From Parvibaculum sedimenti (lineage in GTDB: Bacteria > Pseudomonadota > Alphaproteobacteria > Parvibaculales > Parvibaculaceae): DNA of 64,000 bases. This document shows, piece by piece, positions 17,613 to 34,089 of this stretch. Each line of letters starts with the position of its first letter. The stretch's first letter is position 1. The position numbers and the translations under genes are program-made. The stretch spans positions 1 through 64,000 of the forward strand of contig NZ_WESC01000012.1 in assembly GCF_009184905.1 (NCBI RefSeq). Direction: 5' to 3'. The notes under the pieces were generated by a model that saw only the letters and a list, made by a program, of their open reading frames with translations, was not told the DNA's origin and made no database searches.

Positions 17613-20600
17613 ATGGCATTAAGCCGCCCGCGCACGGCGAAAGTGATCGACGCACACGCAGGCCGACGCGCCATTCGCAGGCCGCTTGGTACCGCTGACG
17701 ATTTCGAGGTTGTCGGAATAGGCGCCTCCGCAGGAGGCCTCGACGCCTGCCGGAAGCTGCTGGCTACCCTGCCCGCCGATATCGGCATGGCTTTCATACT
17801 GGTGCAGCATCTGGACCCGACCCACGAAAGCATGATGGTCGAATTGCTGGCGGCGCACACATCTATGCCCGTGCTACAAGCGACGAATGGAATGCTCATC
17901 GAGAGCGATCATCTTTATGTCATTCCCCCCGGGGCGTATCTCTCCGTCGGCAATGGGGCGCTGCACCTCTCGCAGCCGCAAGAGCGCCATGGAGCACGCC
18001 TACCTTTCGACTTTTTGTTGCATTCCATGGCGGTCGAGTACGGCGCCCGTGCCGCCGGTGTGGTCCTTTCCGGAACGGGGGCCGACGGGAGCCTTGGGCT
18101 GAAAGCTGTGAAGGCAAGCCGCGGTCTCGTCATCGCTCAGGACCCCGACGAAGCCAGCTATGACGGCATGCCCCGCAGTGCAATCCAGACGGGCGCGGTC
18201 GATCTTGTGCTGCCCGTCGCCAAGATTTTCCAGGCCCTCGTCGAATATCGCCAGAAAGCTGCCTCCACTCGAGTTCATGCCGACGCGGCGCCACAGAGCG
18301 ATGCCGTGGATCATTTGTCAGCGATTATCGATCTTTTGCGCAGCAAAACGGCACATGATTTCACGCTGTACAAGCCCGGTACGCTGCAGCGTCGGATCAC
18401 GCAGCGCATGTCGCGGGCGGGCATCGCCCCGCATGACACGGATCGGTATCTCGATATTCTACGAAGGGACGCCGAGGAGCTCGAGCTTCTTGCCAATGAC
18501 CTGCTCATCAATGTGACGAGCTTCTTTCGAGACCCGAAGGTATTCGACTATCTGGCTGCGACGATCATTCCGGAGATGATCCACAGCCGCTCGCCCGACC
18601 TGCCACTGCGCATCTGGGTCGCAGGATGCAGCACAGGCGAAGAAGCCTATTCGCTTGCCATGCTTTTTCGCGAGGAAATAGCCGCTGCGAAGCTCAACAT
18701 CAAGTTTCAGATCTTTGCCTCCGATGTCGACCCGGACGCGGTAGCGAAAGCCCGTGAAGGCCTCTATCCGGACGCGATCGACGCAGATGTGTCGGCGGAG
18801 CGGCTTGCACGCTTCTTTTTGAAGGATAATCGAGGTTACCGAGTATCGCCCGAACTCCGCACGGCCGTGGTATTCACAGTTCAGGATCTATTGATCGATC
18901 CGCCATTTTCTCGCCTCGACATGATTGCATGCCGCAATCTCCTGATCTATTTGCGCCCCGAGGCGCAGGCAAAGGCCATATCTGTTTTCCATTTCGCGCT
19001 GCGCGAGGGTGGCATCCTCCTGCTGGGAAACTCGGAGACCGTTGGCAATGACGATGGCCGCTTCGCGGTGATCTCAAAGCCGGCCCGGCTCTTTCGACAT
19101 ATTGGCCGCAGCCGACCGGGTGAGTTGGCTTTTTCGATAAGCCCAGCAGACGGCGCGCGCATCCCGGCACGCCCGGGACAAGGCGCCGCGATCTCACGCC
19201 AGGCCGCGCTCGCCGACCTCTGCAGGCAGCTGGTGGCGGAGAATTATGCGCCCGCGTCGGTTCTGATCGACAGCAAGCATGAGTGCCTTTATTCGCTTGG
19301 GCCCACGGAACTCTACCTGCATGTGGCGCCGGGGCGACCGACACATGATCTCCTCGCAATGGTGACCGATGGGCTGCGCATCAAGCTTCGCGCGGCCATT
19401 CATCAGGCAGGTCAGGAAAAAAAACGCATTGTCGTCCCGGGCGGCCGAACAAAACAAGGCGGCGATCAGGCTTCGTTCAAAATCGCCGTACAGCCGGTCG
19501 TGAACAATGGTGAAGAGCTTTTTTTCATCAGCTTCATTGATGAGCCACAGCACGCACGTCAGCAAGGAACGCCAGCCGTGCCGACGAATGTCGCGCGGGT
19601 CGTCGAGCTGGAAGAGGAACTGAAGGCCACGAGAGGTGAGCTTCAGGGCGCTATTCGCAACCTCGAAATAGCGAGCGAGGAGCAGAAGGCAATCACCGAA
19701 GATGCCTTATCCATCAATGAAGAATATCAGTCCACGAATGAGGAGTTACTGACCTCCAAGGAGGAATTGCAGTCGCTCAACGAAGAGCTCACTGCCCTCA
19801 ATAGCCAGCTTCAGGAAACGCTGGAACGGCAACGTACAACCTCCAACGATCTGCAGAATGTGCTCTACAGCACCGATGTCGCGACACTCTTTCTTGACGT
19901 CGAGATGAATATCCGCTTCTTCACGCCAGCGACGAAGATGCTTTTCAACCTTATCCCGAACGATATCGGCCGTCCGCTTGCCGACCTCAGCTCGTTGGCT
20001 TCGGATGGCGTTCTCCTTGCAGATGCCCGCACGGTCCTGCAGACCCTCGCGCCACTCGACCGCGAGATCGAGGCGCAGAACGGCACCTGGTTCATGCGCC
20101 GGATATTGCCCTACCGCACCCAGGATAATGCAGTCCAGGGCGTCGTTATCACATTCACTGATATCACCGAACGGAAGCGCGCCGCGCAGGCGCTGGAGGA
20201 TGCCAAACGCCAAGCGGACCTGGCGAATGCCGCCAAGTCTCGTTTTCTCGCCGCCGCGAGTCATGATCTCCGCCAACCGCTTCAGACACTTGCCTTGTTG
20301 CAAGGCATGCTGGCGATGACTGTCGAAGGTGAGCGGGCGCAGACGCTGGTCAAACGACTCGATGAAACCCTGGCTGCGATCTCAGGCATGCTGAATGCAC
20401 TACTGGACATCAACCAGATCGACGCCGGCAATGTGAGTGCCAAAGTAGTTTCCTTCCCCATCAACGATCTGTTCAGCCGCCTCAGGGATGAGTTTACCTA
20501 TCATGCGCAAGCCCTGGGACTTGGCTTGCGGGTCGTTCCATGCGGTCTTTCGATAGAAAGCGATCCGCGCCTGCTCGAACAGATGATCCGCAACCTGCTT

Positions 20601-22019
20601 TCGAATGCCCTGAAATACACCAAGCACGGCAAAGTGCTGCTTGGCTGCCGTCGGCATGCCGGCTCACTCAGCATCGAAATCTGGGACACCGGAATCGGCA
20701 TTCCAGATAGCGAGCTACGGAAAATCTTCGAGGAATACCATCAGCTCAACAATGCTGCCCGCGAGCGCGCTCGCGGACTTGGTCTCGGCCTCTCCATCGT
20801 CGAACGCCTGAGCGATTTGCTCGGTCATCGGATACATGTCCGCTCACGCCCGGGGAAAGGCTCCGCCTTTGCTATCGAGATCGTGCTAGGCGCGGGCGAA
20901 GCGGCGCCGCACCCCAAACATGATGGGCACGGCGCTGATGCGGCAGTCGCGGAATCTACACACCATACGGGCAATGTCCTGATCGTCGAGGATGACCCTG
21001 AGGTGCGCGAGCTCATGGAACTTCTACTCAAGAGCGAGGGTCACCATGTGGCAGCCGCGCCCGATGGTTCTTCGGCGCTGGAATTGGTTGCCCGAGGTAC
21101 GATCAGGCCCGATCTCATTCTCGCGGATTACAATCTGCCCGGCGGCATGAATGGGCTCCAGATGGCGAAAAAGCTGCGGGAGAGACTTCATACCGCTCTC
21201 CCGGTGATCATTCTGACGGGCGACATCTCGACGAGTACCTTGCGTGACATCGCGCTTCAGAATTGCACGCAGCTTAACAAGCCCGTGAAGCCGAGGGAGC
21301 TGACACAGATCCTCCAGAATCTGCTCACCGCATCAGCCATCACCGTCCAGGTCTCGCCGCCGCCACCCGAGCCGATCGTCCGCCCTGCAACGCCGGTTGT
21401 CTTTGTCATTGACGACGACAACCACGTCCGCGAGGCGATACGCACAGCGCTTGAAGATGATGGCTTGGCGGTCGAGGACTTTTCGAGCTGCGAGGCATTC
21501 CTGGCGGCCTATCGTCGGGGCGGTGAAGCCTGTCTCGTGATCGATGCCTATCTGCCCGGAATGAAGGGCATCGAATTGTTGCAACGATTGAAAGATGAGG
21601 GGCATCAGCTGCCCTCCATCATGATCACAGGCAGCAGCGACGTATCGATGGCCGTTCAGGCGATGAAGGCAGGCGCTTCGGATTTCGTCGAAAAGCCGAT
21701 CAGCCACGCCGACCTCCTTGCCGGAGTCCGGCGCGCGCTGGAACAGTCGCGGGATTCCGGAAAGCTCGTTGCCTGGCGGCAAACGGCGGTAGACCATCTG
21801 GCGACGCTCACATCGCGGCAACGCCAGATCATGGAGATGGTTCTGGCGGGGCACCCCAGCAAGAATATCGCCGCCGATCTCGGCATCAGCCAGCGTACCG
21901 TCGAAAACCATCGAGCGTCGATCATGAAGAAAACGGGCACCAGATCGCTGCCCGCCCTGGCCAGATTGGCGCTCGCAGCCGCGTCAAACGCCGCCGATGA
22001 GACTGTTGCCGGCGATTGA
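17613..22019 (+). CDS. CheB-CheR-PAS hybrid histidine kinase with two receivers and LuxR-type HTH
   Basis: A 1468-residue soluble one-protein signalling chain. Domains in order: CheB methylesterase (about 30-210, with intact catalytic S39, H66 and D158); CheR methyltransferase (about 225-490, SAM loop VAGCSTGEEAYSLAM, NLLIYL); a coiled coil rich in NEEL (about 655-740); PAS (about 745-865); HisKA with phospho-His 884 (AASHDLRQP); HATPase (about 985-1105, DTGIGIP, GLGLGLSIVERL); receiver 1 with D1172; receiver 2 with D1311; and a FixJ/NarL-type helix-turn-helix (about 1398-1460, LTSRQRQIMEMVLAGHPSKNIA). CheB-CheR-PAS kinases are common, but ending in a FixJ-like receiver plus DNA-binding domain makes it sensor and transcription factor in one chain. 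The start follows an AT-rich region; no strong ribosome site is seen. Confidence 0.9.
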   Translation: MALSRPRTAKVIDAHAGRRAIRRPLGTADDFEVVGIGASAGGLDACRKLLATLPADIGMAFILVQHLDPTHESMMVELLAAHTSMPVLQATNGMLIESDHLYVIPPGAYLSVGNGALHLSQPQERHGARLPFDFLLHSMAVEYGARAAGVVLSGTGADGSLGLKAVKASRGLVIAQDPDEASYDGMPRSAIQTGAVDLVLPVAKIFQALVEYRQKAASTRVHADAAPQSDAVDHLSAIIDLLRSKTAHDFTLYKPGTLQRRITQRMSRAGIAPHDTDRYLDILRRDAEELELLANDLLINVTSFFRDPKVFDYLAATIIPEMIHSRSPDLPLRIWVAGCSTGEEAYSLAMLFREEIAAAKLNIKFQIFASDVDPDAVAKAREGLYPDAIDADVSAERLARFFLKDNRGYRVSPELRTAVVFTVQDLLIDPPFSRLDMIACRNLLIYLRPEAQAKAISVFHFALREGGILLLGNSETVGNDDGRFAVISKPARLFRHIGRSRPGELAFSISPADGARIPARPGQGAAISRQAALADLCRQLVAENYAPASVLIDSKHECLYSLGPTELYLHVAPGRPTHDLLAMVTDGLRIKLRAAIHQAGQEKKRIVVPGGRTKQGGDQASFKIAVQPVVNNGEELFFISFIDEPQHARQQGTPAVPTNVARVVELEEELKATRGELQGAIRNLEIASEEQKAITEDALSINEEYQSTNEELLTSKEELQSLNEELTALNSQLQETLERQRTTSNDLQNVLYSTDVATLFLDVEMNIRFFTPATKMLFNLIPNDIGRPLADLSSLASDGVLLADARTVLQTLAPLDREIEAQNGTWFMRRILPYRTQDNAVQGVVITFTDITERKRAAQALEDAKRQADLANAAKSRFLAAASHDLRQPLQTLALLQGMLAMTVEGERAQTLVKRLDETLAAISGMLNALLDINQIDAGNVSAKVVSFPINDLFSRLRDEFTYHAQALGLGLRVVPCGLSIESDPRLLEQMIRNLLSNALKYTKHGKVLLGCRRHAGSLSIEIWDTGIGIPDSELRKIFEEYHQLNNAARERARGLGLGLSIVERLSDLLGHRIHVRSRPGKGSAFAIEIVLGAGEAAPHPKHDGHGADAAVAESTHHTGNVLIVEDDPEVRELMELLLKSEGHHVAAAPDGSSALELVARGTIRPDLILADYNLPGGMNGLQMAKKLRERLHTALPVIILTGDISTSTLRDIALQNCTQLNKPVKPRELTQILQNLLTASAITVQVSPPPPEPIVRPATPVVFVIDDDNHVREAIRTALEDDGLAVEDFSSCEAFLAAYRRGGEACLVIDAYLPGMKGIELLQRLKDEGHQLPSIMITGSSDVSMAVQAMKAGASDFVEKPISHADLLAGVRRALEQSRDSGKLVAWRQTAVDHLATLTSRQRQIMEMVLAGHPSKNIAADLGISQRTVENHRASIMKKTGTRSLPALARLALAAASNAADETVAGD

Positions 22020-26332: not shown

Positions 26333-27298
26333 ATGTTGAAGCGGATACTGGTGACGGGTGGCGCGGGGTTTCTCGGGTCTCATCTCTGCGAGCGCCTGCT
26401 GGATGCCGGTAATGAAGTGCTGTGCGTCGATAATTTCTTCACCGGCACCAGGCGCAATGTCTCGCATCTCCTCGATCGGAAGCCGTTCGAAATCCTCAGG
26501 CACGACATCACCTTCCCGCTCTATGTCGAGGTGGACGAGATCTACAACCTCGCCTGCCCCGCTTCGCCCATCCACTACCAGTTCGATCCGGTGCAGACGA
26601 CCAAGACCAGCGTGATGGGCGCGATCAACATGCTCGGTCTCGCCAAGCGCCTGAAAGCCAAGGTGCTGCAGGCATCGACCTCGGAAGTCTATGGCGACCC
26701 GGTCGAGCATCCGCAACGGGAGGAATATTGGGGCAATGTGAACCCCGTCGGCATTCGCGCCTGCTATGACGAGGGCAAGCGCTGCGCCGAGACGCTTTTC
26801 TTTGACTATATTCGCCAGCACCAATTGCCCGCGAAGGTCGTCCGCATCTTCAATACCTATGGCCCCCGGATGCATCCGAATGACGGGCGCGTCGTATCGA
26901 ACTTTGTAGTTCAGGCGCTGAAGGGCGAGGACATCACCATCTATGGCGATGGAAGTCAGAGCCGATCTTTCTGCTACGTCGACGAAATCGTCGAAGCCAT
27001 GATCCGGATGATGGCCACGCCGCCCGAGGTGACGGGTCCGATCAATATTGGCAATCCCGTCGAGTTCACGATTCTCGACCTCGCCCGCATGGTCATCGAA
27101 ATCACCGGCTCGAAGTCGCAAATCCGCTTCAAGGATTTGCCCTCGGACGATCCGAAGCAGCGCCAGCCCGATATCACGCGCGCCAGGGCCGAGCTCGGCT
27201 GGGAGCCAAAGATCGAACTGCGCGAGGGACTGACGAAAACGATCGCCTATTTCGAAGAGCTGCTTCTAAATCCGAATGTCGTCCCACGACCGGAGTAG
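26333..27298 (+). CDS. UDP-glucuronate decarboxylase (UDP-xylose synthase)
   Basis: A 321-residue short-chain dehydrogenase that converts UDP-glucuronate to UDP-xylose with bound NAD. The Rossmann loop TGGAGFLGS is at residues 8-16. The catalytic Y145 and K149 sit in [11 protein letters not shown]. The segments [36 protein letters not shown] and GDG.Q.RSFCYV are typical of UXS rather than of epimerases. The length is normal. It is followed at a short distance by a GT61 glycosyltransferase gene, suggesting that the UDP-xylose is used for a surface glycan. Confidence 0.93.
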
Positions 27299-27350
27299 GA
27301 GTTACGGCCACCACCCCCTGCTGCCGCCCCCACGCTGGAGCCGCGCTACC

Positions 27351-28469
27351 ATGCCCAGACTGAATCTCACCGTCCGCTGGCAGCGCAAGCTCGCCCGATT
27401 TCATCTGCTTCCCTCTGCCGAACGCTTTGCGGAGACCATCTTCGGCGCGACCGACGAATACGGCCCGGCCTATCCCGATTATGACCGTCCTCCCTTCGAC
27501 AAAAGGCCGATCAAATTCCGACATGAGCGGATGAACGGCTGGGTGCGGCTCTTCACGGGCAAGCTACGGCTGGAATATGCGACCGGACTCATCTATTCCG
27601 GCCTGCGTCCGATCTATCGGTCGACGGACGACATCTACACGAAATTCCTTCCCGCGACGAAATACTACGCCACGTTTCGCAGGAAGCGACGGCACATCGA
27701 CGAAGCGATCGTGCTGACGACGCTTTGGGCAGATGGCTACTATCACTTCCTCTATGAGTTCGTGGCGAAGGTGGAGCTCATAGAACGCGCCGGACTGTCG
27801 CCGACTATTCCGGCGATCGTCCCCAAAGGCCTCACGGAGCGATCCTTCTTCAAGCAAGCCGTCGCGCTTGGACTGTTCGGCGACCGCCCCATCATTGTTC
27901 AGGAAGAGGACGAGGTCATTGAGGCCAGACGCTTTTATGTTGTAAGGCCCGACCGTCATTCGCAGCGCCAGCTTGGCTTCCCCGCGAAGCGCTTTGGCGC
28001 TTGCCCAGATCCTCAGGCTCGGCTCCGCATCTATGTATCGCGGAATACACAGGCTGGCACGATCAGGCAGATCCTCAACGAGCAGGAACTCGTCGCCCGG
28101 CTGGAGCCGCTCGGCTTTCAGGTGGTTGATCCCGGCACAACCCCGCTTTCGGCTCAGATCGATCTTTTCTCACGCGCGAGCATTGTCGTTGGGCCGCACG
28201 GTGCGGGCCTGGCCAATATCCTCTTCCGCACAGGCGCTCCGATGGCGCTTGTCGAGATGATCAACGACACCAAACTGACGCACCACCACTTCTTCCAGAT
28301 CGCGAGGCTCTGCGACTATTTCTATCGCGCCACGCTGAACCGAGCCGAGGCCACCTGGGAACAGACGGCCAATGCCCATGCGGACATCGAATCGGTCATG
28401 GAAGCCGTGAACGAGGCAATCGCCTGGGAACATTCGACCTACGACGGCGTCGCGAAGCAGGCCGGTTGA
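27351..28469 (+). CDS. Glycosyltransferase family 61 (DUF563)
   Basis: A 372-residue protein, cytoplasmic by sequence. It carries the GT61 signature VVGPHGAGLANILFRTGAPMALVEMIN near residues 280-300 and RIYVSRNTQAG.IRQILNEQELV before it. Plant GT61 enzymes include beta-xylosyltransferases. The adjacent UDP-xylose synthase makes a xylosyl donor plausible, but this is inference. ATG 27351 lies 52 bp after the UXS stop; an earlier ATG at 27276 overlaps UXS and adds an unconserved Arg/Pro-rich stretch. Confidence 0.85.
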   Translation: MPRLNLTVRWQRKLARFHLLPSAERFAETIFGATDEYGPAYPDYDRPPFDKRPIKFRHERMNGWVRLFTGKLRLEYATGLIYSGLRPIYRSTDDIYTKFLPATKYYATFRRKRRHIDEAIVLTTLWADGYYHFLYEFVAKVELIERAGLSPTIPAIVPKGLTERSFFKQAVALGLFGDRPIIVQEEDEVIEARRFYVVRPDRHSQRQLGFPAKRFGACPDPQARLRIYVSRNTQAGTIRQILNEQELVARLEPLGFQVVDPGTTPLSAQIDLFSRASIVVGPHGAGLANILFRTGAPMALVEMINDTKLTHHHFFQIARLCDYFYRATLNRAEATWEQTANAHADIESVMEAVNEAIAWEHSTYDGVAKQAG

Positions 28470-28483
28470 TTGCACACTGAAGA

Positions 28484-28888
28484 TCACGCGTGGGCTGCCG
28501 CCAACTCCCCGATCAGATTGTCGAGCCCCGCCAGCAAGTGTCGCCAGGCATTGTCCATCTCGGGCGTCCATTCATCGCCCAGAACCTCCCGGAAGGTTTC
28601 CATGACGGTGCCAAAGAAGGTGGCGAAGACGGCGGGCGGTACGCCGAGATTTTCGTGATTGCGCAGCTCGCTCGGGATCATATTGGCCGCATAGCGCCGG
28701 TCGCCAGTGAAATCCACCAGACATTCTATGACCTGCGCAAGCATTTCGCCCTTCACGAGGTCGTTGGAATCGCGCACGAAGAGCACCTGCATCTCCGGAT
28801 GGCGGGCGAAGAGCCGTTGATAAACGAGCGGGGTGGGATCGCCGATACGCTCGGCTACTTTTTCAAGACTCTCCAGTACCAAATTCAT
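28484..28888 (-). CDS. Single-domain bacterial globin
   Basis: A 134-residue globin. H78 in SELRNHENLGVP is the probable proximal (F8) heme ligand. The AB and E helices include VYQRLFARHPEMQVLF with the conserved CD-region Phe. Such globins bind oxygen or detoxify NO; no reductase domain is fused. AGGGAGGACG lies directly before the ATG. It is convergent with the GT61 gene, 14 bp apart, and divergent from the PqqD operon. Confidence 0.85.
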   Translation of the reverse strand: MNLVLESLEKVAERIGDPTPLVYQRLFARHPEMQVLFVRDSNDLVKGEMLAQVIECLVDFTGDRRYAANMIPSELRNHENLGVPPAVFATFFGTVMETFREVLGDEWTPEMDNAWRHLLAGLDNLIGELAAAHA

Positions 28889-29117: not shown

Positions 29118-29567
29118 ATGCATTTTAAGGCTGTCTACGAAGTATCCACACCCGACGTCGTGGCCGAGGATTTTGGTGGTGAGGTCGTGGTCTTGAACCT
29201 GGGAAATGGGCGTTATTTCAGCCTTCTGGGCGTTTCGGCCGATATCTGGCGCGATCTCGCCCGGGGCCACAAACCTCAGGACCTGATCGACTATGCGGTA
29301 GCCGCCCGCGCCTCTCTCGGAGAGGCCGTTTCTGTGCTGGTCGCCAGCATGATCGCCGAAGGGCTCATCCGTCCTCTGAGCGATTCGGAGGACCGCGCGA
29401 GCCCAACCGGAGCGGCAAGTGCAGCGGCAGCATTGCTTGCCGGCGAAGACGTGCCGCCAATGGAGGCCTTCGACGATATGGCCGAACTTATCCTTGCCGA
29501 CCCGATTCACGATGTCGATGAGGATATGGGCTGGCCTGTGAAGCGGGACCCGGCGCCCACAGCCTGA
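29118..29567 (+). CDS. PqqD-like peptide chaperone (RRE) with conserved C-terminal tail
   Basis: A 149-residue protein. Residues about 8-90 form a PqqD-type winged helix that in RiPP pathways binds leader peptides (EVVVLNLGNGRYFSLLGVSA, then IW..LA.G, then ASMIAEGLI). Residues 91-149 are an extra tail: an Ala/Gly linker, then PPMEAFDDMAELILADPIHD and the motif DPIHDVDEDMGWP (128-140). I recall similar DPIH.VDE.GWP tails in other PqqD-like proteins, so the tail may be the modified substrate or a docking element. AAGGA precedes the ATG. It heads an operon with an HprK-related kinase, two GT2 enzymes and a nucleotidyltransferase, like the clusters called HPr-rel-A. Confidence 0.82.
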   Translation: MHFKAVYEVSTPDVVAEDFGGEVVVLNLGNGRYFSLLGVSADIWRDLARGHKPQDLIDYAVAARASLGEAVSVLVASMIAEGLIRPLSDSEDRASPTGAASAAAALLAGEDVPPMEAFDDMAELILADPIHDVDEDMGWPVKRDPAPTA

Positions 29568-29574
29568 GCCTCCA

Positions 29575-30633
29575 ATGCCCGCCGTCCGCATCGATATCGC
29601 GAACCTTCCCCTATTCGCGCAGGACCTCATCGGCCGCACGGCAAACCTGCCGCGCTCGTCGCTGCATTTGCGCAAGCTCAGCATATTCGGCCTCAGCATC
29701 GACGCATGGTTCAGCGATCCCGCCTATGCTGATCTCTGCGCCCGCAACATCGCGCAGACGCCAGCGGGCGAAGGTGCTGTAGAGATCACCCTGTTCCTCA
29801 TTGATGCGCAATCGACCGGCTCCCCGGCTCCCGCCCGCTGGGGCGAAGATGTCTTCGACCGCGCGGCCTTCAATGAGGCGCTCGCCTCGGCGGGCCTTCA
29901 CGGCGCCTATCTGCACGATCCGCGGGTCTGGCAGTTCTTCTCGCCTGCCGCACGGACCGGCGTCCAGATGATCCGCGAACCCGGTGCAACGCCGGACTGG
30001 GAAACGGGCGGCCCTCTTCGCGTCTTCCTTCACTGGGCTGTTGCCATGAATGGCGCGCGGCTCTGCCATGCCGCAACACTTGGGCACGATGGCAAGGGCG
30101 TCCTGCTCTCCGGCGCGGGCGGCTCCGGCAAGTCGGGCACCACACTCGCCGGTATCGCAGGTGGCCTCACGACCGTCGGCGACGATTACTGCCTCCTTAC
30201 CCAAGGCGATGGCGATGGCGCTTCCGCTTACCCGCTATACCGCATTCTGAAGCAGGACCCGGCGGGCGTCGCCCGCGCCCTCGGCCCCGTCGCCGCGTCG
30301 CGCTTCGGAGCACTCAACTGGCAAGGCAAATACGAGATCCACGCCCCCTTCTTGCACCGCTCGCCATTTGTCGACCGGCTGGCGATCAAGGCGCTGCTGT
30401 TGCCGAGGGTCGCCCATGCGGCACGCAGCGAACTCCGCCCGGTTTCCGCAGGTGCCGCCATGCGCGCCTTCGCGCCATCGAGCGTGTTCCAGCTTCCCGA
30501 CGATGAGACGCAAGGTATCCAGTTTGCGGCGAGGCTCTGCCGCCACCTTCCCTGCTATGAATTGTTTCTGTCGGAAGATGCCGAAGATATCGCTGGAACC
30601 ATCAAGCACTTCATCGAAGAATTGCCGGAATGA
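29575..30633 (+). CDS. HprK-related serine kinase A-like protein
   Basis: A 352-residue protein resembling the ATP-binding core of HPr kinase/phosphorylase. The Walker A GAGGSGKS is at about residues 180-187, preceded by HAATLGHDGKGVLLSG and followed by GDDYCLL, the Walker B-like segment. The N-terminal about 160 residues are a non-kinase domain special to this branch. No phosphocarrier HPr gene is near, so the target is more likely a peptide or protein of this cluster. Related kinases in some lasso-peptide clusters phosphorylate a C-terminal serine. The gene starts 7 bp after the PqqD gene, and its stop overlaps the next start (ATGA). Confidence 0.8.
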   Translation: MPAVRIDIANLPLFAQDLIGRTANLPRSSLHLRKLSIFGLSIDAWFSDPAYADLCARNIAQTPAGEGAVEITLFLIDAQSTGSPAPARWGEDVFDRAAFNEALASAGLHGAYLHDPRVWQFFSPAARTGVQMIREPGATPDWETGGPLRVFLHWAVAMNGARLCHAATLGHDGKGVLLSGAGGSGKSGTTLAGIAGGLTTVGDDYCLLTQGDGDGASAYPLYRILKQDPAGVARALGPVAASRFGALNWQGKYEIHAPFLHRSPFVDRLAIKALLLPRVAHAARSELRPVSAGAAMRAFAPSSVFQLPDDETQGIQFAARLCRHLPCYELFLSEDAEDIAGTIKHFIEELPE

Positions 30634-31391
30634 CAGACAAGATCAGCGTCATCATGCCCGCGCTTAATGCCGGCCGCTTCATCGGTCCCGCGCTGCGTTC
30701 CCTGCTGCGCGAGCCGGGGGTCGATCTCGACATCATCGTGGTCGATGACGGTTCGACCGATGACACCGCCGCAATAGTGGAGAAAATCGCCGCCACTCAT
30801 CCCTGTATCAGGATCATCAATGGTCCCAAGGCGGGCGTCTCACGGGCGCGCAATGCGGGCCTTGCCGCCGTCTCGCCCGAGAGCCGCTACATCACCTTTC
30901 TCGATGCGGACGATCACTGCGCTCCGGACAGGATCTGGCGACAGCTCCAGCTTCTCAAAGATAATCCAGACCTCGAATTCATCATCGGGCTCGTGCAATT
31001 CTTCGAGGAGATCGACGAGGAGACGAGCAGGATCATCGAGGGATCGAAAACGGTGACAGTCACCGGCGTTCAACTCGCCGCGGCACTTTTCCGCCGCTCG
31101 GTCTTCGACAGGTTCGGAGGCTTCGACGAGGAAATGCCGCAGGGCGAGGACACCGACTTCTTCATGCGCCTGCTTGAGGCGCAGACACCATATCTCCTTG
31201 AGACGGTTGTTGCCGTGTTCTATCGGCGCCACTTTGCCAACATGACCAATGACACAGCGCAAGTGCGGCGCGGATTCGTCGATGCTCTGCGCAAATCTCT
31301 CAATCGGCGGCGCGCAGGCGGTGGATCGATGGAAATCGGTGACCTTTTCAAGCGACGTGGATCGGCCGAGGAGGCTTTCAGGAATGCATGA
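30630..31391 (+). CDS. Glycosyltransferase family 2 (first of pair)
   Basis: A 253-residue GT-A enzyme with no membrane segment. ISVIMPALNAGRFIGPALRS and IIVVDDGSTDDT form the nucleotide-binding start, ITFLDADDH is the DxD-type metal site, and GGFDEEMPQGEDTDFFMRL contains the ED catalytic-base region. It overlaps its upstream neighbour by 4 nt and its downstream neighbour by 8 nt, so it is translationally coupled. Its acceptor is unknown; within this operon it may glycosylate the PqqD-bound substrate or a surface polymer. Confidence 0.88.
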   Translation: MTDKISVIMPALNAGRFIGPALRSLLREPGVDLDIIVVDDGSTDDTAAIVEKIAATHPCIRIINGPKAGVSRARNAGLAAVSPESRYITFLDADDHCAPDRIWRQLQLLKDNPDLEFIIGLVQFFEEIDEETSRIIEGSKTVTVTGVQLAAALFRRSVFDRFGGFDEEMPQGEDTDFFMRLLEAQTPYLLETVVAVFYRRHFANMTNDTAQVRRGFVDALRKSLNRRRAGGGSMEIGDLFKRRGSAEEAFRNA

Positions 31392-32085
31392 GGCCTACAG
31401 CGTTGTCATTCCCGCCTATAATGCGGCGGAGACCATCGAAGAGGCGCTGCATTCGATCCTGACGCAAAGCGTGCCGCCCGAGCGGGTCATCGTCGTGGAC
31501 GACGGCTCCATTGACGACACAGGCCTGCGCGCCAAAGCGCTGGACGCTCGCGTCGTCGTGATCCGGCAAATGAACCAGGGCTGCGGCGCCGCCACCACAG
31601 CCGGCATCGCGGAAGTAACGACGCCGTTCATCAGCTTTCTCGACTCCGACGACCTCTGGCTTCCTCACAAGGCGGAGCGCCAGCTTGCCCGGCTCTCTGA
31701 GCGCACAGAGATCGCCGCGCTGGTCGCCCAGGCTCAGATATTCAGAGGCCCCACAGGCTCGCCGCAACTCGGCCCGGTTCGTGAATTGTGGGGACGCACC
31801 ACGCTGATGATGCGCACGAAAGCGGCAAAGGCCATCGGCGAGGTCATCGACCCGCCGGGCGCGCGCGGTGACATGGTCGACTGGATCGCCCGTGGCCGCG
31901 AAAAAGGCTACGCCTTCGAATTGATGAACGAAGTGCTGTCGATGCGGCGCATAAGGCCGGGAAGCCTGTCCTATGGCCGCGATATGGAGAAGGATCGCGG
32001 CTATCTCCTTACCGTGAAGCGCGCGCTGGAACGCAAGCGGGCGGCTGCCGTACCACAGCCCTCTCCGGCGCGGCGCGATGAGTAG
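31384..32085 (+). CDS. Glycosyltransferase family 2 (second of pair)
   Basis: A 233-residue GT-A enzyme starting at the ATG inside ATGCATGA, which overlaps the previous stop. It has YSVVIPAYNAAETIEEALHS, VIVVDDGSIDDTG and FISFLDSDDLWLPHKAE (DxD). The C-terminal part differs from the first copy: RGDMVDWIARGREKGY replaces the ED motif, and a short basic tail ends it. The pair are paralogous in fold but not recent duplicates. The stop overlaps the next start (ATGAGTAG). Confidence 0.87.
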   Translation: MHEAYSVVIPAYNAAETIEEALHSILTQSVPPERVIVVDDGSIDDTGLRAKALDARVVVIRQMNQGCGAATTAGIAEVTTPFISFLDSDDLWLPHKAERQLARLSERTEIAALVAQAQIFRGPTGSPQLGPVRELWGRTTLMMRTKAAKAIGEVIDPPGARGDMVDWIARGREKGYAFELMNEVLSMRRIRPGSLSYGRDMEKDRGYLLTVKRALERKRAAAVPQPSPARRDE

Positions 32086-33532
32086 TCTTGCCCGGCTTCT
32101 CATGCGCCAATCATGGCCGCAAGGCGATCTCGACCTTCTTTTGAAGGTTTCACTCCTGCCCGAGGCGGAAGCGGCCAGATGCTGGGAGCAGTGGAAGGCA
32201 CATCACGATCTCGACGATGTGACGTGGGAGGAGCACAAGCTTCTCACCCCCATTGCCTCGCGCCTTCCCGCCATCGCGCCCGACTGCCCCTATCGCCCGC
32301 GCGTGCAGGGCCTTGCCAAAGCCCATTGGACGACTTCGCAGCTCATGTTGCGAGCGTCGGCGGCGGCCCTCGACGTCCTGATCGCGAACGCCATTCCGGT
32401 CATGCTCCTCAAGGGCGGCGCGCTTCAGGCGGCAGGGCTCGCAGGAAGCGGCCCGCGTATCAGTGGCGATCTCGATATTCTCGTTCCGCGCGCGCTCTAT
32501 CCCCGCACCATCGCGCTTCTCTATGCGGACGAATGGTCTTCACGGGATTCGCGTGAATATGCGCAGAGCTCATGGCGCTTCCGCTCGGGCCTCAACCTTC
32601 GTCGCGGCCTTCATGGCGACATCGATGTTCATCACCAACCCGTGCCGAGTCCCCGGCTCAGCGACGCCGCGCTCGACGCGCTCTGGTCACGGGCGGTGCC
32701 CGCCCGCTTTCATGGCCGGGCTATCTTCGTTCCCTGCCATGCCGACATGATCGCGCTCACGGCCGCGCATGCGATGCACCCCGCGACCGCACGGCAACTT
32801 AGCGCCGCCTGGGCCTTCGATCTCATCACGCTTTTGAAGCATGGCGAGGTCGATCTGGAGAAGGTCGTCGAAAGCACGGCGGCGCTCGACGCTGTGGCGG
32901 CCTGCCTGGCCTGCCTGCTTTATCTCGACAGACTCGTACCGCTCGACAATGGCCGACAGCTCATCCACGCATTAGAGCAGCGCCGCACCAGACTGGGAGA
33001 AACGCTTGGGCTCTTTGCGCACTCAAAGGGTTCGGCAGCCACCACCCCATTGCGGCACCTTGCCGGGCTCGTCGCGGAAAGCCCGAAAGATGATTTCGAA
33101 CCCGAACGGCGCGTCGTGCCACGCATCCGCCGTTCGCGCCGGCCGATACCGGACAAAGGCGCCATCGCCCAGACATTGGACATGCGCGAGCCGAGGCTGC
33201 GCCATGAGTTCAGTATCGGGGGACCCGAATTGGATGGACCACGCCGCCTGGTCGTCGAAATCGAATTCGAGAGGCCCCGCGTCGCGCGGCGCTTCCGCTT
33301 CGACATCTCCGTCGATGGCATGCCGGTCGCACGTCTCGGCGCCCGCCCGGCAAGCCTCGCCCCCGCGACGCGCATGACCTTTTCTGTGCCGCTGCCGTAT
33401 GCGAGCGAACTTTCGTCCCGCATCGCCATCGAGGCTCTGTCAGAGGGGGAAATCCCGGCAAAGGCAAATCTGGAACAGATCCTGCGAGCAAAGCCAGTAC
33501 CGTTCCAGATCGCACATCTCGCCTGGGCTTGA
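32078..33532 (+). CDS. NTP_transf_5-type nucleotidyltransferase with extra C-terminal domain
   Basis: A 484-residue protein. Residues about 85-290 match the NTP_transf_5 family: VMLLKGGALQAAGL, then GPRISGDLDILVPRA with the GxxxDxD-like metal site, then HGDIDVHHQPV and later ALTAAHAMHP. Members occur next to HprK-related kinases and in lasso-peptide clusters, where they are thought to nucleotidylate a substrate or partner. The C-terminal about 190 residues (RHEFSIGGPELDGPRRLVVE, then FRFDISVDGMPVARLG) look beta-rich and are unfamiliar. It is the last gene of the coupled five-gene operon. Confidence 0.78.
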   Translation: MSSLARLLMRQSWPQGDLDLLLKVSLLPEAEAARCWEQWKAHHDLDDVTWEEHKLLTPIASRLPAIAPDCPYRPRVQGLAKAHWTTSQLMLRASAAALDVLIANAIPVMLLKGGALQAAGLAGSGPRISGDLDILVPRALYPRTIALLYADEWSSRDSREYAQSSWRFRSGLNLRRGLHGDIDVHHQPVPSPRLSDAALDALWSRAVPARFHGRAIFVPCHADMIALTAAHAMHPATARQLSAAWAFDLITLLKHGEVDLEKVVESTAALDAVAACLACLLYLDRLVPLDNGRQLIHALEQRRTRLGETLGLFAHSKGSAATTPLRHLAGLVAESPKDDFEPERRVVPRIRRSRRPIPDKGAIAQTLDMREPRLRHEFSIGGPELDGPRRLVVEIEFERPRVARRFRFDISVDGMPVARLGARPASLAPATRMTFSVPLPYASELSSRIAIEALSEGEIPAKANLEQILRAKPVPFQIAHLAWA

Positions 33533-33543
33533 TCAGCGCCGCG

Positions 33544-33981
33544 TCACTTCACTTCCTTGCACGGAAATTTATCGGCGAGGCTCCGGCCCGCAAGCTCGGC
33601 GGCGGGACGTTCGGCAAGTTCGGGATGCGTCTTGTTGTATTCGACAACGAGCGCGGCGAACTCCTGATATTTCAGCATTTCAGGGAGGCGGAAGCAGACC
33701 TCTTCGTCCTTCTTCGGCCCGAGGCGATGGAGCTTGGTCGGCATGCCCGCCTCGGTCGCGTTGTAGACGGCAACCACCATGCCGGCCAGAAACTGGTTGC
33801 AGGCGGTGGCGGAGATCTGCCCCTTTTCGGACATATCCATGTCAACCGACGCATTACAGGCGGCGACAAGATCGGCACCGGTCTTTATATCGGCACCGGG
33901 ATTGGCCCAGGCGGCCGACGCGGCAGCGACAGCAGCGACAGCAGCGAGCAGAGGCACCGCAAAACGCACTGACTTTCTCAT
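33544..33981 (-). CDS. Rap1a/Tai family exported protein
   Basis: A 145-residue protein with a signal peptide (residues 1-26, ending AWA). The mature part fits the Rap1a/Tai fold: TGADLVAACN, then CNQFLAGMVVAVYN, then CFRLPEMLKYQEFAALVVEYNKTHPEL, then A..LAGRSLADKFPC, with the paired cysteines typical of the family. Founders are immunity proteins against type VI effectors, but many chromosomal members have no effector partner, and none is visible here. AGGAGGAGG lies before ATG 33981; an upstream frame to 34071 is not needed. Confidence 0.75.
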   Translation of the reverse strand: MRKSVRFAVPLLAAVAAVAAASAAWANPGADIKTGADLVAACNASVDMDMSEKGQISATACNQFLAGMVVAVYNATEAGMPTKLHRLGPKKDEEVCFRLPEMLKYQEFAALVVEYNKTHPELAERPAAELAGRSLADKFPCKEVK

Positions 33982-34035
33982 TCGACTTTTTCCTCCTCCT
34001 GAGACGATCATCACGATCGACATCGCAGCATAGGG

Positions 34036-34063
34036 AAAAACCGCGCCGCTTTCGAGGCGCGGC
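34036..34063 (-). terminator. Rho-independent terminator after the LLM monooxygenase gene
   Basis: Read on the minus strand: CCGCGCC, loop TCGAAAGC, GGCGCGG, then TTTTT. It lies about 30 bp after the stop of the monooxygenase gene and before the Rap1a-like gene, so the two are separate transcripts. Confidence 0.85.
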
Positions 34064-34089
34064 TTTGTCACATTGAGAATTCGGCCCGC

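Follow-up and report, generated by a model that had tools for sequence, protein, structure and literature searches.

A rare five-gene cassette of Parvibaculum sedimenti, probably for phosphorylating and glycosylating a peptide or protein

Introduction

What does a gene set modify that joins an RRE to an HprK-like kinase, two GT2 glycosyltransferases and an NTP_transf_5 protein, and to which known system does it belong? Here, we address this question for the five genes at positions 29118 to 33532 of a 64,000-nucleotide stretch of Parvibaculum sedimenti (contig NZ_WESC01000012.1, positions 1 to 64,000; hereafter, the window). These five tightly packed genes form a rare, mobile cassette, the probable role of which is to phosphorylate and glycosylate a peptide or protein. 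More importantly, as judged from its sequence, the RRE bears its own copy of the recognition motif of leader peptides, joined to a near-invariant tail.

Results

The initial annotation described a five-gene operon at 29118-33532. All five open reading frames (ORFs) and their domains were found there, and the gene order recurs elsewhere. The features are as follows.

29118 to 29567, + strand: discrete RRE (PqqD/lasso-B1-like) with a C-terminal tail, 149 aa; PF05402 and TbiB1 matches
29451 to 29537, + strand: RRE codons 112-140, degenerate leader-like strand (VPPMEAF) plus the conserved segment FDDMAELILADPIHDVDEDMGWP; conservation and motif statistics
29575 to 30633, + strand: HprK-like kinase, 352 aa, with the His-Lys-Asp-Asp set H165, K186, D203 and D204; alignment and structure matches
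30630 to 31391, + strand: GT2 glycosyltransferase GTa, 253 aa; PF00535, 104 bits; start overlaps the kinase stop (ATGA)
31384 to 32085, + strand: GT2 glycosyltransferase GTb; PF00535, 96 bits; ATG at 31384 overlaps the GTa stop in ATGCATGA
32078 to 33532, + strand: NTP_transf_5 nucleotidyltransferase-fold protein (NTP5), 484 aa; PF14907, 93 bits

The RRE protein matches the Pfam family PqqD (PF05402) at 27.9 bits, above the cut-off, and is predicted to be nearest to lasso B1 proteins: a profile built from 22 RRE homologues matches TbiB1 at 69 bits, and the best match of the predicted model is the TbiB1-leader complex (Z 10.7, root-mean-square deviation 3.1, 84 residues). The window genome has one RRE of this tail-bearing family. 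After a variable linker, its members carry a tail with the consensus FxDMxELLLLDPIHEVDxxGWP in every genus but one (that of L044 and L046). Across 22 sequences, a truncated pair included, D128 and P140 never vary, while L124, P129, H131, G138 and W139 are kept in >90%. The mean fraction of the majority residue is 0.64 in the tail (residues 118-140), 0.44 in the RRE domain, 0.27 in the linker and 0.23 beyond the tail; by this alignment measure, the tail segment is conserved more than the RRE domain itself. The conserved tail is matched by no database family. A DNA-pattern scan of 385 genomes for the tail motif returned eight places, of which seven were RRE tails and the eighth was a chance match out of frame; the reversed-pattern control returned 0 matches. 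In the genome scans, the constant tail was seen solely fused to the RRE of the cassette family; a 24-bit tail match in genome G754 was judged to be chance.

The motif by which lasso and LPP leaders bind their RREs is [Y/W]xxPx[L/V/I/F/A] (PMC13381572), and it tolerates hydrophobic substitutions, e.g., LxxP (PMC12710340). Allowing F in the first position, which extends the published [Y/W] motif, we found [Y/F/W]xxPx[hydrophobic] at one exact column before the constant segment in 11 of 18 independent lineages (e.g., YAAPTL, WQAPGF and FEKPML). Shuffling gave a mean of 0.03, with 0 of 20,000 shuffles reaching 11, and other offsets did not score. A strand is predicted at RRE residues 116-118, and the block 111-120 has a pLDDT of 92. 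The excerpts of published RRE surveys available to us do not mention an RRE carrying its own recognition motif. Two other roles for the tail were considered: its own LxxDP was rejected as an RRE-binding motif because the leucine at -3 varies, and the tail is disfavored as the Ser acceptor of the kinase because Ser is not conserved in it.

The tail-RRE occurs in 7 of 389 genomes of the class (~2%) and in 8 of 397 genomes of the phylum, one of the latter probably by chance. Because the kinase is present in 2 of 27 genomes of the window's genus, the window genome included, the cassette is accessory. The order RRE-kinase-GT2-GT2-NTP5 is kept in a congener (L036), Aquibium (L037), Mesorhizobium (L038) and a betaproteobacterial metagenome-assembled genome (MAG; L041), as well as in L042, L045, L078 and L082; L077 and L080 have an extra GT2, L043 and L079 lack NTP5, and there is just one GT2 in L047, L081 and L110. 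In a planctomycete MAG (L040), the contig ends just past the GT2 start, and a Crinalium plasmid (L068) encodes RRE, NTP5, kinase, FkbM methyltransferase and GT2. The set is thereby found in proteobacteria (alpha- and others), in a planctomycete MAG and on a cyanobacterial plasmid. This last cassette (L068, 4991-9390) lies on a mobilizable plasmid, with the methyltransferase between the kinase and the GT2, and its first NTP_transf_5 seems to lack the DxD motif.

Across 27 tail-RRE loci, GT2 is present in 27, the kinase in 23 and NTP5 in 18, making GT2 the constant partner of the tail-RRE. In three loci of one genus (L062, L111 and L113), a second tail-RRE copy is accompanied by two GT2 genes, with no kinase or NTP5 nearby; in L062, the second copy adjoins a GT4 gene. 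L044 and L046, also of one genus, are reshuffled to two NTP_transf_5 genes, kinase, GT4, RRE and one GT2; their RRE tail is shortened to DDMADLLALDPPLPAAPR, in which the leader-like motif is retained and HEV...GWP is gone.

The flanks of the cassette differ between genomes. In L036, it occupies another site, beside L21, L27 and ObgE-like genes, while it is flanked by a transporter and an AMP-binding enzyme in L037 and by oxidoreductases in L038. Because the same set recurs in unrelated genomes with different flanks, the cassette is self-contained and moves horizontally. In two congeners that keep the conserved block downstream (from the luciferase-like and ferritin-like genes on), the slot beside it holds an unrelated large glycosyltransferase. 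In the window, this block opens beside the cassette with a Rap1a-like gene (33544-34071, - strand); the glycosyltransferase in this variable glyco-slot has 687-698 aa (L096:5294-7357 and L097:9401-11497). Upstream of the cassette, at 26333-28469, lie a sugar-nucleotide epimerase/decarboxylase-like gene and GT61, which do not accompany the cassette in L036, and a globin gene on the reverse strand (28484-28888) separates them from it. Farther away, 17613-22019 encodes a 1468-aa fusion of CheB, CheR, PAS, histidine kinase, response regulator receiver and LuxR-type DNA-binding domains.

The overlapping starts and stops that had been taken to tie the genes together are present at three junctions, namely, the ATGA common to the kinase stop and the GTa start at 30630, ATGCATGA at 31384-31391 between GTa and GTb, and ATGAGTAG at 32078-32085 between GTb and NTP5, but not between the RRE and the kinase, where the stop at 29565-29567 is followed by a 7-bp gap and the kinase ATG at 29575. 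The true start of GTb is 31384 and not the mechanical ORF start at 31249. Terminator-like sites across the cassette region are at the level of shuffled sequence (5 found, 4.9 expected), and one transcript is therefore uncontradicted. Together with the recurrence of the gene order in many genomes, this argues that the arrangement is more than chance.

The kinase matches Hpr_kinase_C weakly (17.6 bits; cut-off, 33.3) and HPr kinase structures at an E value of 6e-5. H165, K186, D203 and D204 are invariant in an alignment of 21 kinase homologues, and this His-Lys-Asp-Asp set is reported to be catalytic or required in lasso kinases (PMC9266682). Viral contigs contained no match to the kinase. In the GT2 tree, GTa and GTb form separate well-supported groups common to the window, the congener and Phyllobacteriaceae-type loci, arguing that the pair travelled as a unit in that clade. 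NTP5 has a nucleotidyltransferase fold, and Foldseek matches it weakly to ANT(2'')-Ia, TglT and FKRP; its model contains a low-confidence C-terminal beta-sandwich (approximately residues 374-483) that is weakly like sugar-binding domains.

HPr-rel-A clusters had been named, together with some lasso-peptide loci, as known places where such enzymes occur side by side. HPr-rel-A loci, like the cassette, combine an HprK-related kinase, a PqqD-like protein and sometimes NTP_transf_5; however, membership was rejected because the window kinase scores 34.5 bits against HprK_rel_A (TIGR04352; cut-off, 200) and its PqqD does not match TIGR04353 (cut-off, 35 bits). The kinases of two relatives score 29-39 bits, while bona fide HPr-rel-A loci of the class pass at 246-331; similarly, the Crinalium PqqD does not match TIGR04353, while that of L053 reaches 55.9. 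In addition, the tail and the GT2 pair are absent from the HPr-rel-A loci L049-L053. Small proteins in which an Arg-Arg pair precedes a hydrophobic, signal-like stretch lie near the HPr-rel-A-type kinases of four loci (L049:11662-11934, L050:8367-8756, L051:10843-11493 and L053:8576-8857) and look like candidate substrates of that system.

The nearest match, which had been overlooked, is instead the tailoring set of lasso and LPP systems (PMC13381572). LPP loci encode LppA, LppK, LppB, LppS, LppD and LppN (PMC13381572) and share with the cassette a discrete lasso-type RRE, an HprK-like kinase and an NTP transferase, assuming that NTP_transf_5 and LppN are the same family, as well as the absence of a macrolactam cyclase, a patchy occurrence and horizontal movement. 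Unlike LPP loci, the cassette showed no separate LppA-like precursor ORF (YxxPxVLxHQxIxFETxxS motif) and no SipW-like peptidase or MsbA-like exporter among the neighbors scanned; it adds two dedicated GT2 enzymes and has an RRE that itself bears a leader-like motif and a constant tail. Moreover, LPP are reported to be restricted to Bacillota (PMC13381572), whereas the cassette occurs in Proteobacteria, Planctomycetes and Cyanobacteria. Lasso tailoring (paeninodin PadeK/ThcoK and pseudomycoidin PsmK with PsmN) resembles the cassette in its HprK-like Ser kinase with the His-Lys-Asp-Asp set, in a nucleotidyltransferase, which in lasso tailoring is linked to sugar on phosphoserine, and in its B1-type RRE, and GT2 also occurs in some Butyrivibrio lasso clusters (PMC7533575); however, neither a precursor nor a B2 protease nor an asparagine-synthetase-like cyclase was found with the cassette.

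In mycofactocin biosynthesis, the RRE MftB is paired with the GT2 enzyme MftF, which acts on a product derived from a peptide; the cassette GT2 scores 72 bits against the MftF cut-off of 280. For each of the HPr-rel-A, lasso and LPP systems, the cassette lacked one or more of the defining features that were tested, while its likeness in apparent mode of action to the lasso/LPP tailoring half stands.

A search of 1,975 small ORFs on both strands at 22 loci, covering 5 kb of upstream and 9 kb of downstream sequence, found no ORF of 15-130 aa common to non-kin loci and only two chance pairs; very short or strongly diverged peptides could escape this search, which as a positive control does link the 38-aa RRE tails. 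Among the window neighbors scanned with Pfam, there was no transporter or peptidase, including SipW-like peptidases and MsbA-like exporters, and the neighboring genes scanned included no asparagine-synthetase-like cyclase, B2 protease or radical SAM enzyme. The earlier remark on the lack of HPr, cyclase and precursor nearby is supported.

Discussion

An RRE-guided system for phosphorylation and glycosyl or nucleotidyl transfer, as initially suggested, remains the best reading of the locus, and the genes stay linked in other genomes. Neither a general lack of linkage between PqqD and the kinase or nucleotidyltransferase homologues nor a separate transcript for the GT2 genes was found. Tentatively, and with somewhat less than even confidence, we favor the view that the cassette is a variant of the phospho-glycosyl tailoring module of lasso and LPP systems, in which a leader-like scaffold tail is built in and the acceptor is encoded outside the cassette. 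It builds on features observed directly, namely, the gene set, order and linkage, the intact catalytic residues of the kinase, the RRE fold, the conservation of the tail and the statistics of the leader motif; from these, we infer a docking role of the tail and an acceptor in trans. We prefer a scaffold or gate with an acceptor in trans because the loci share no small ORF, no peptidase or exporter was among the window neighbors scanned, and the tail has no conserved Ser.

According to this model, the cassette would be a self-contained cytoplasmic modification module like those that tailor phosphorylated lasso peptides and LPPs. The RRE protein would act as the organizer, and its tail, a leader-like strand able to occupy the RRE groove followed by the constant helical/GWP segment, would be a built-in handle that recruits and gates the enzymes. 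The HprK-like kinase would phosphorylate a hydroxyl, probably of a serine, on an acceptor encoded outside the cassette; NTP_transf_5 may cap that phosphate with, or exchange it for, a sugar or nucleotide group; and the two soluble GT2 enzymes would extend the sugar. There are precedents for such steps: LppK and PadeK add phosphate to a Ser of their precursors, the pseudomycoidin kinase targets a C-terminal Ser, with PsmN linked to hexoses on the phosphoserine (PMC13381572, PMC9266682), and the LPP kinase puts several phosphates on one Ser (PMC13381572).

Several observations weigh against this model. No acceptor was found at the loci, and the chemistry is carried over by analogy from PadeK, PsmK/PsmN and LppK. 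The window copy of the motif, EDVPPM, keeps the P and the hydrophobic residue but has lost the aromatic anchor; Aquibium, Mesorhizobium and a few further lineages also lack the aromatic. In the window RRE, the first pocket is altered (R at the position equivalent to LppB Tyr60, L at that of Phe74); because the anchor is absent and this pocket is altered, contact with the leader groove may be lost in the window's clade. In most lineages without the aromatic residue, the Tyr60 equivalent is also non-aromatic; however, this covariation of pocket and motif is a trend short of significance (Fisher p 0.09). Four of the 27 tail-RRE loci, from two lineages, have no kinase nearby. Finally, because no visible effect followed from deleting LppN in the study of LPPs (PMC13381572), the role of NTP_transf_5 is uncertain.

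Decoration of a surface glycan is a reading that we consider unlikely. Here, the GT2 enzymes and a FKRP/LicD-like NTP5 would assemble or cap the side chain of a polysaccharide, the kinase would phosphorylate a sugar or regulate these enzymes, and the RRE would be an adaptor only. The epimerase/decarboxylase-like gene and GT61 just upstream fit this idea, as do the ABC-2 exporters or GT4 genes beside some cassettes (L079 and L062), the weak likeness of NTP5 to FKRP and of its C-terminal domain to sugar-binding sandwiches, and the unrelated glycosyltransferase in the same slot of two congeners. However, the GT61 genes are cut off from the cassette by the globin gene, the neighbors in most loci (e.g., L036, L037 and L038) are unconnected with polysaccharide, and a pathway that makes only glycan would have no obvious need for an RRE with a leader-like motif.

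It is also conceivable, if rather improbable, that the RRE is fused to its own precursor, so that it would hold its leader-like strand in cis and present DPIHEVDxxGWP to the kinase, NTP5 and the GT2 enzymes as the substrate. The lack of any other small ORF common to the loci and the restriction of the constant segment to the tail-RRE in the genome scans argue for this possibility, and the spacing from motif to segment appears to be where known leaders end and cores begin (PMC13381572); such a self-fusion is unmentioned in the excerpt of a published RRE survey. Against it, the tail has neither a conserved Ser nor a conserved Thr, and that of L037 has no Ser at all, yet LppK required Ser, with S3T left unphosphorylated (PMC13381572). 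Moreover, L044 and L046 have lost HEV...GWP but retain the kinase, GT2 and NTP5, and no peptidase or exporter was among the neighbors scanned. That the product of such a fusion of RRE, leader and core, modified in cis, would be a glycosyl-phosphoryl protein serving inside the cell as a cofactor or carrier, and not a secreted peptide, is a suggestion to which we likewise give little credence. A degenerate HPr-rel-A or lasso cluster stripped of its other genes would have the enzyme families in common but is very improbable and largely refuted, as the kinase and PqqD scores fall where real HPr-rel-A loci pass and as five intact genes are kept as a set in many genomes, unlike decay.

If the tailoring model with an acceptor in trans is true, pathways of phosphorylated peptides would extend from Bacillota to Proteobacteria, Planctomycetes and Cyanobacteria, without a separate precursor. 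The constant tail (31 residues) offers a searchable handle for such systems, and the five-gene system makes the action of NTP_transf_5 after HprK-like phosphorylation directly testable.

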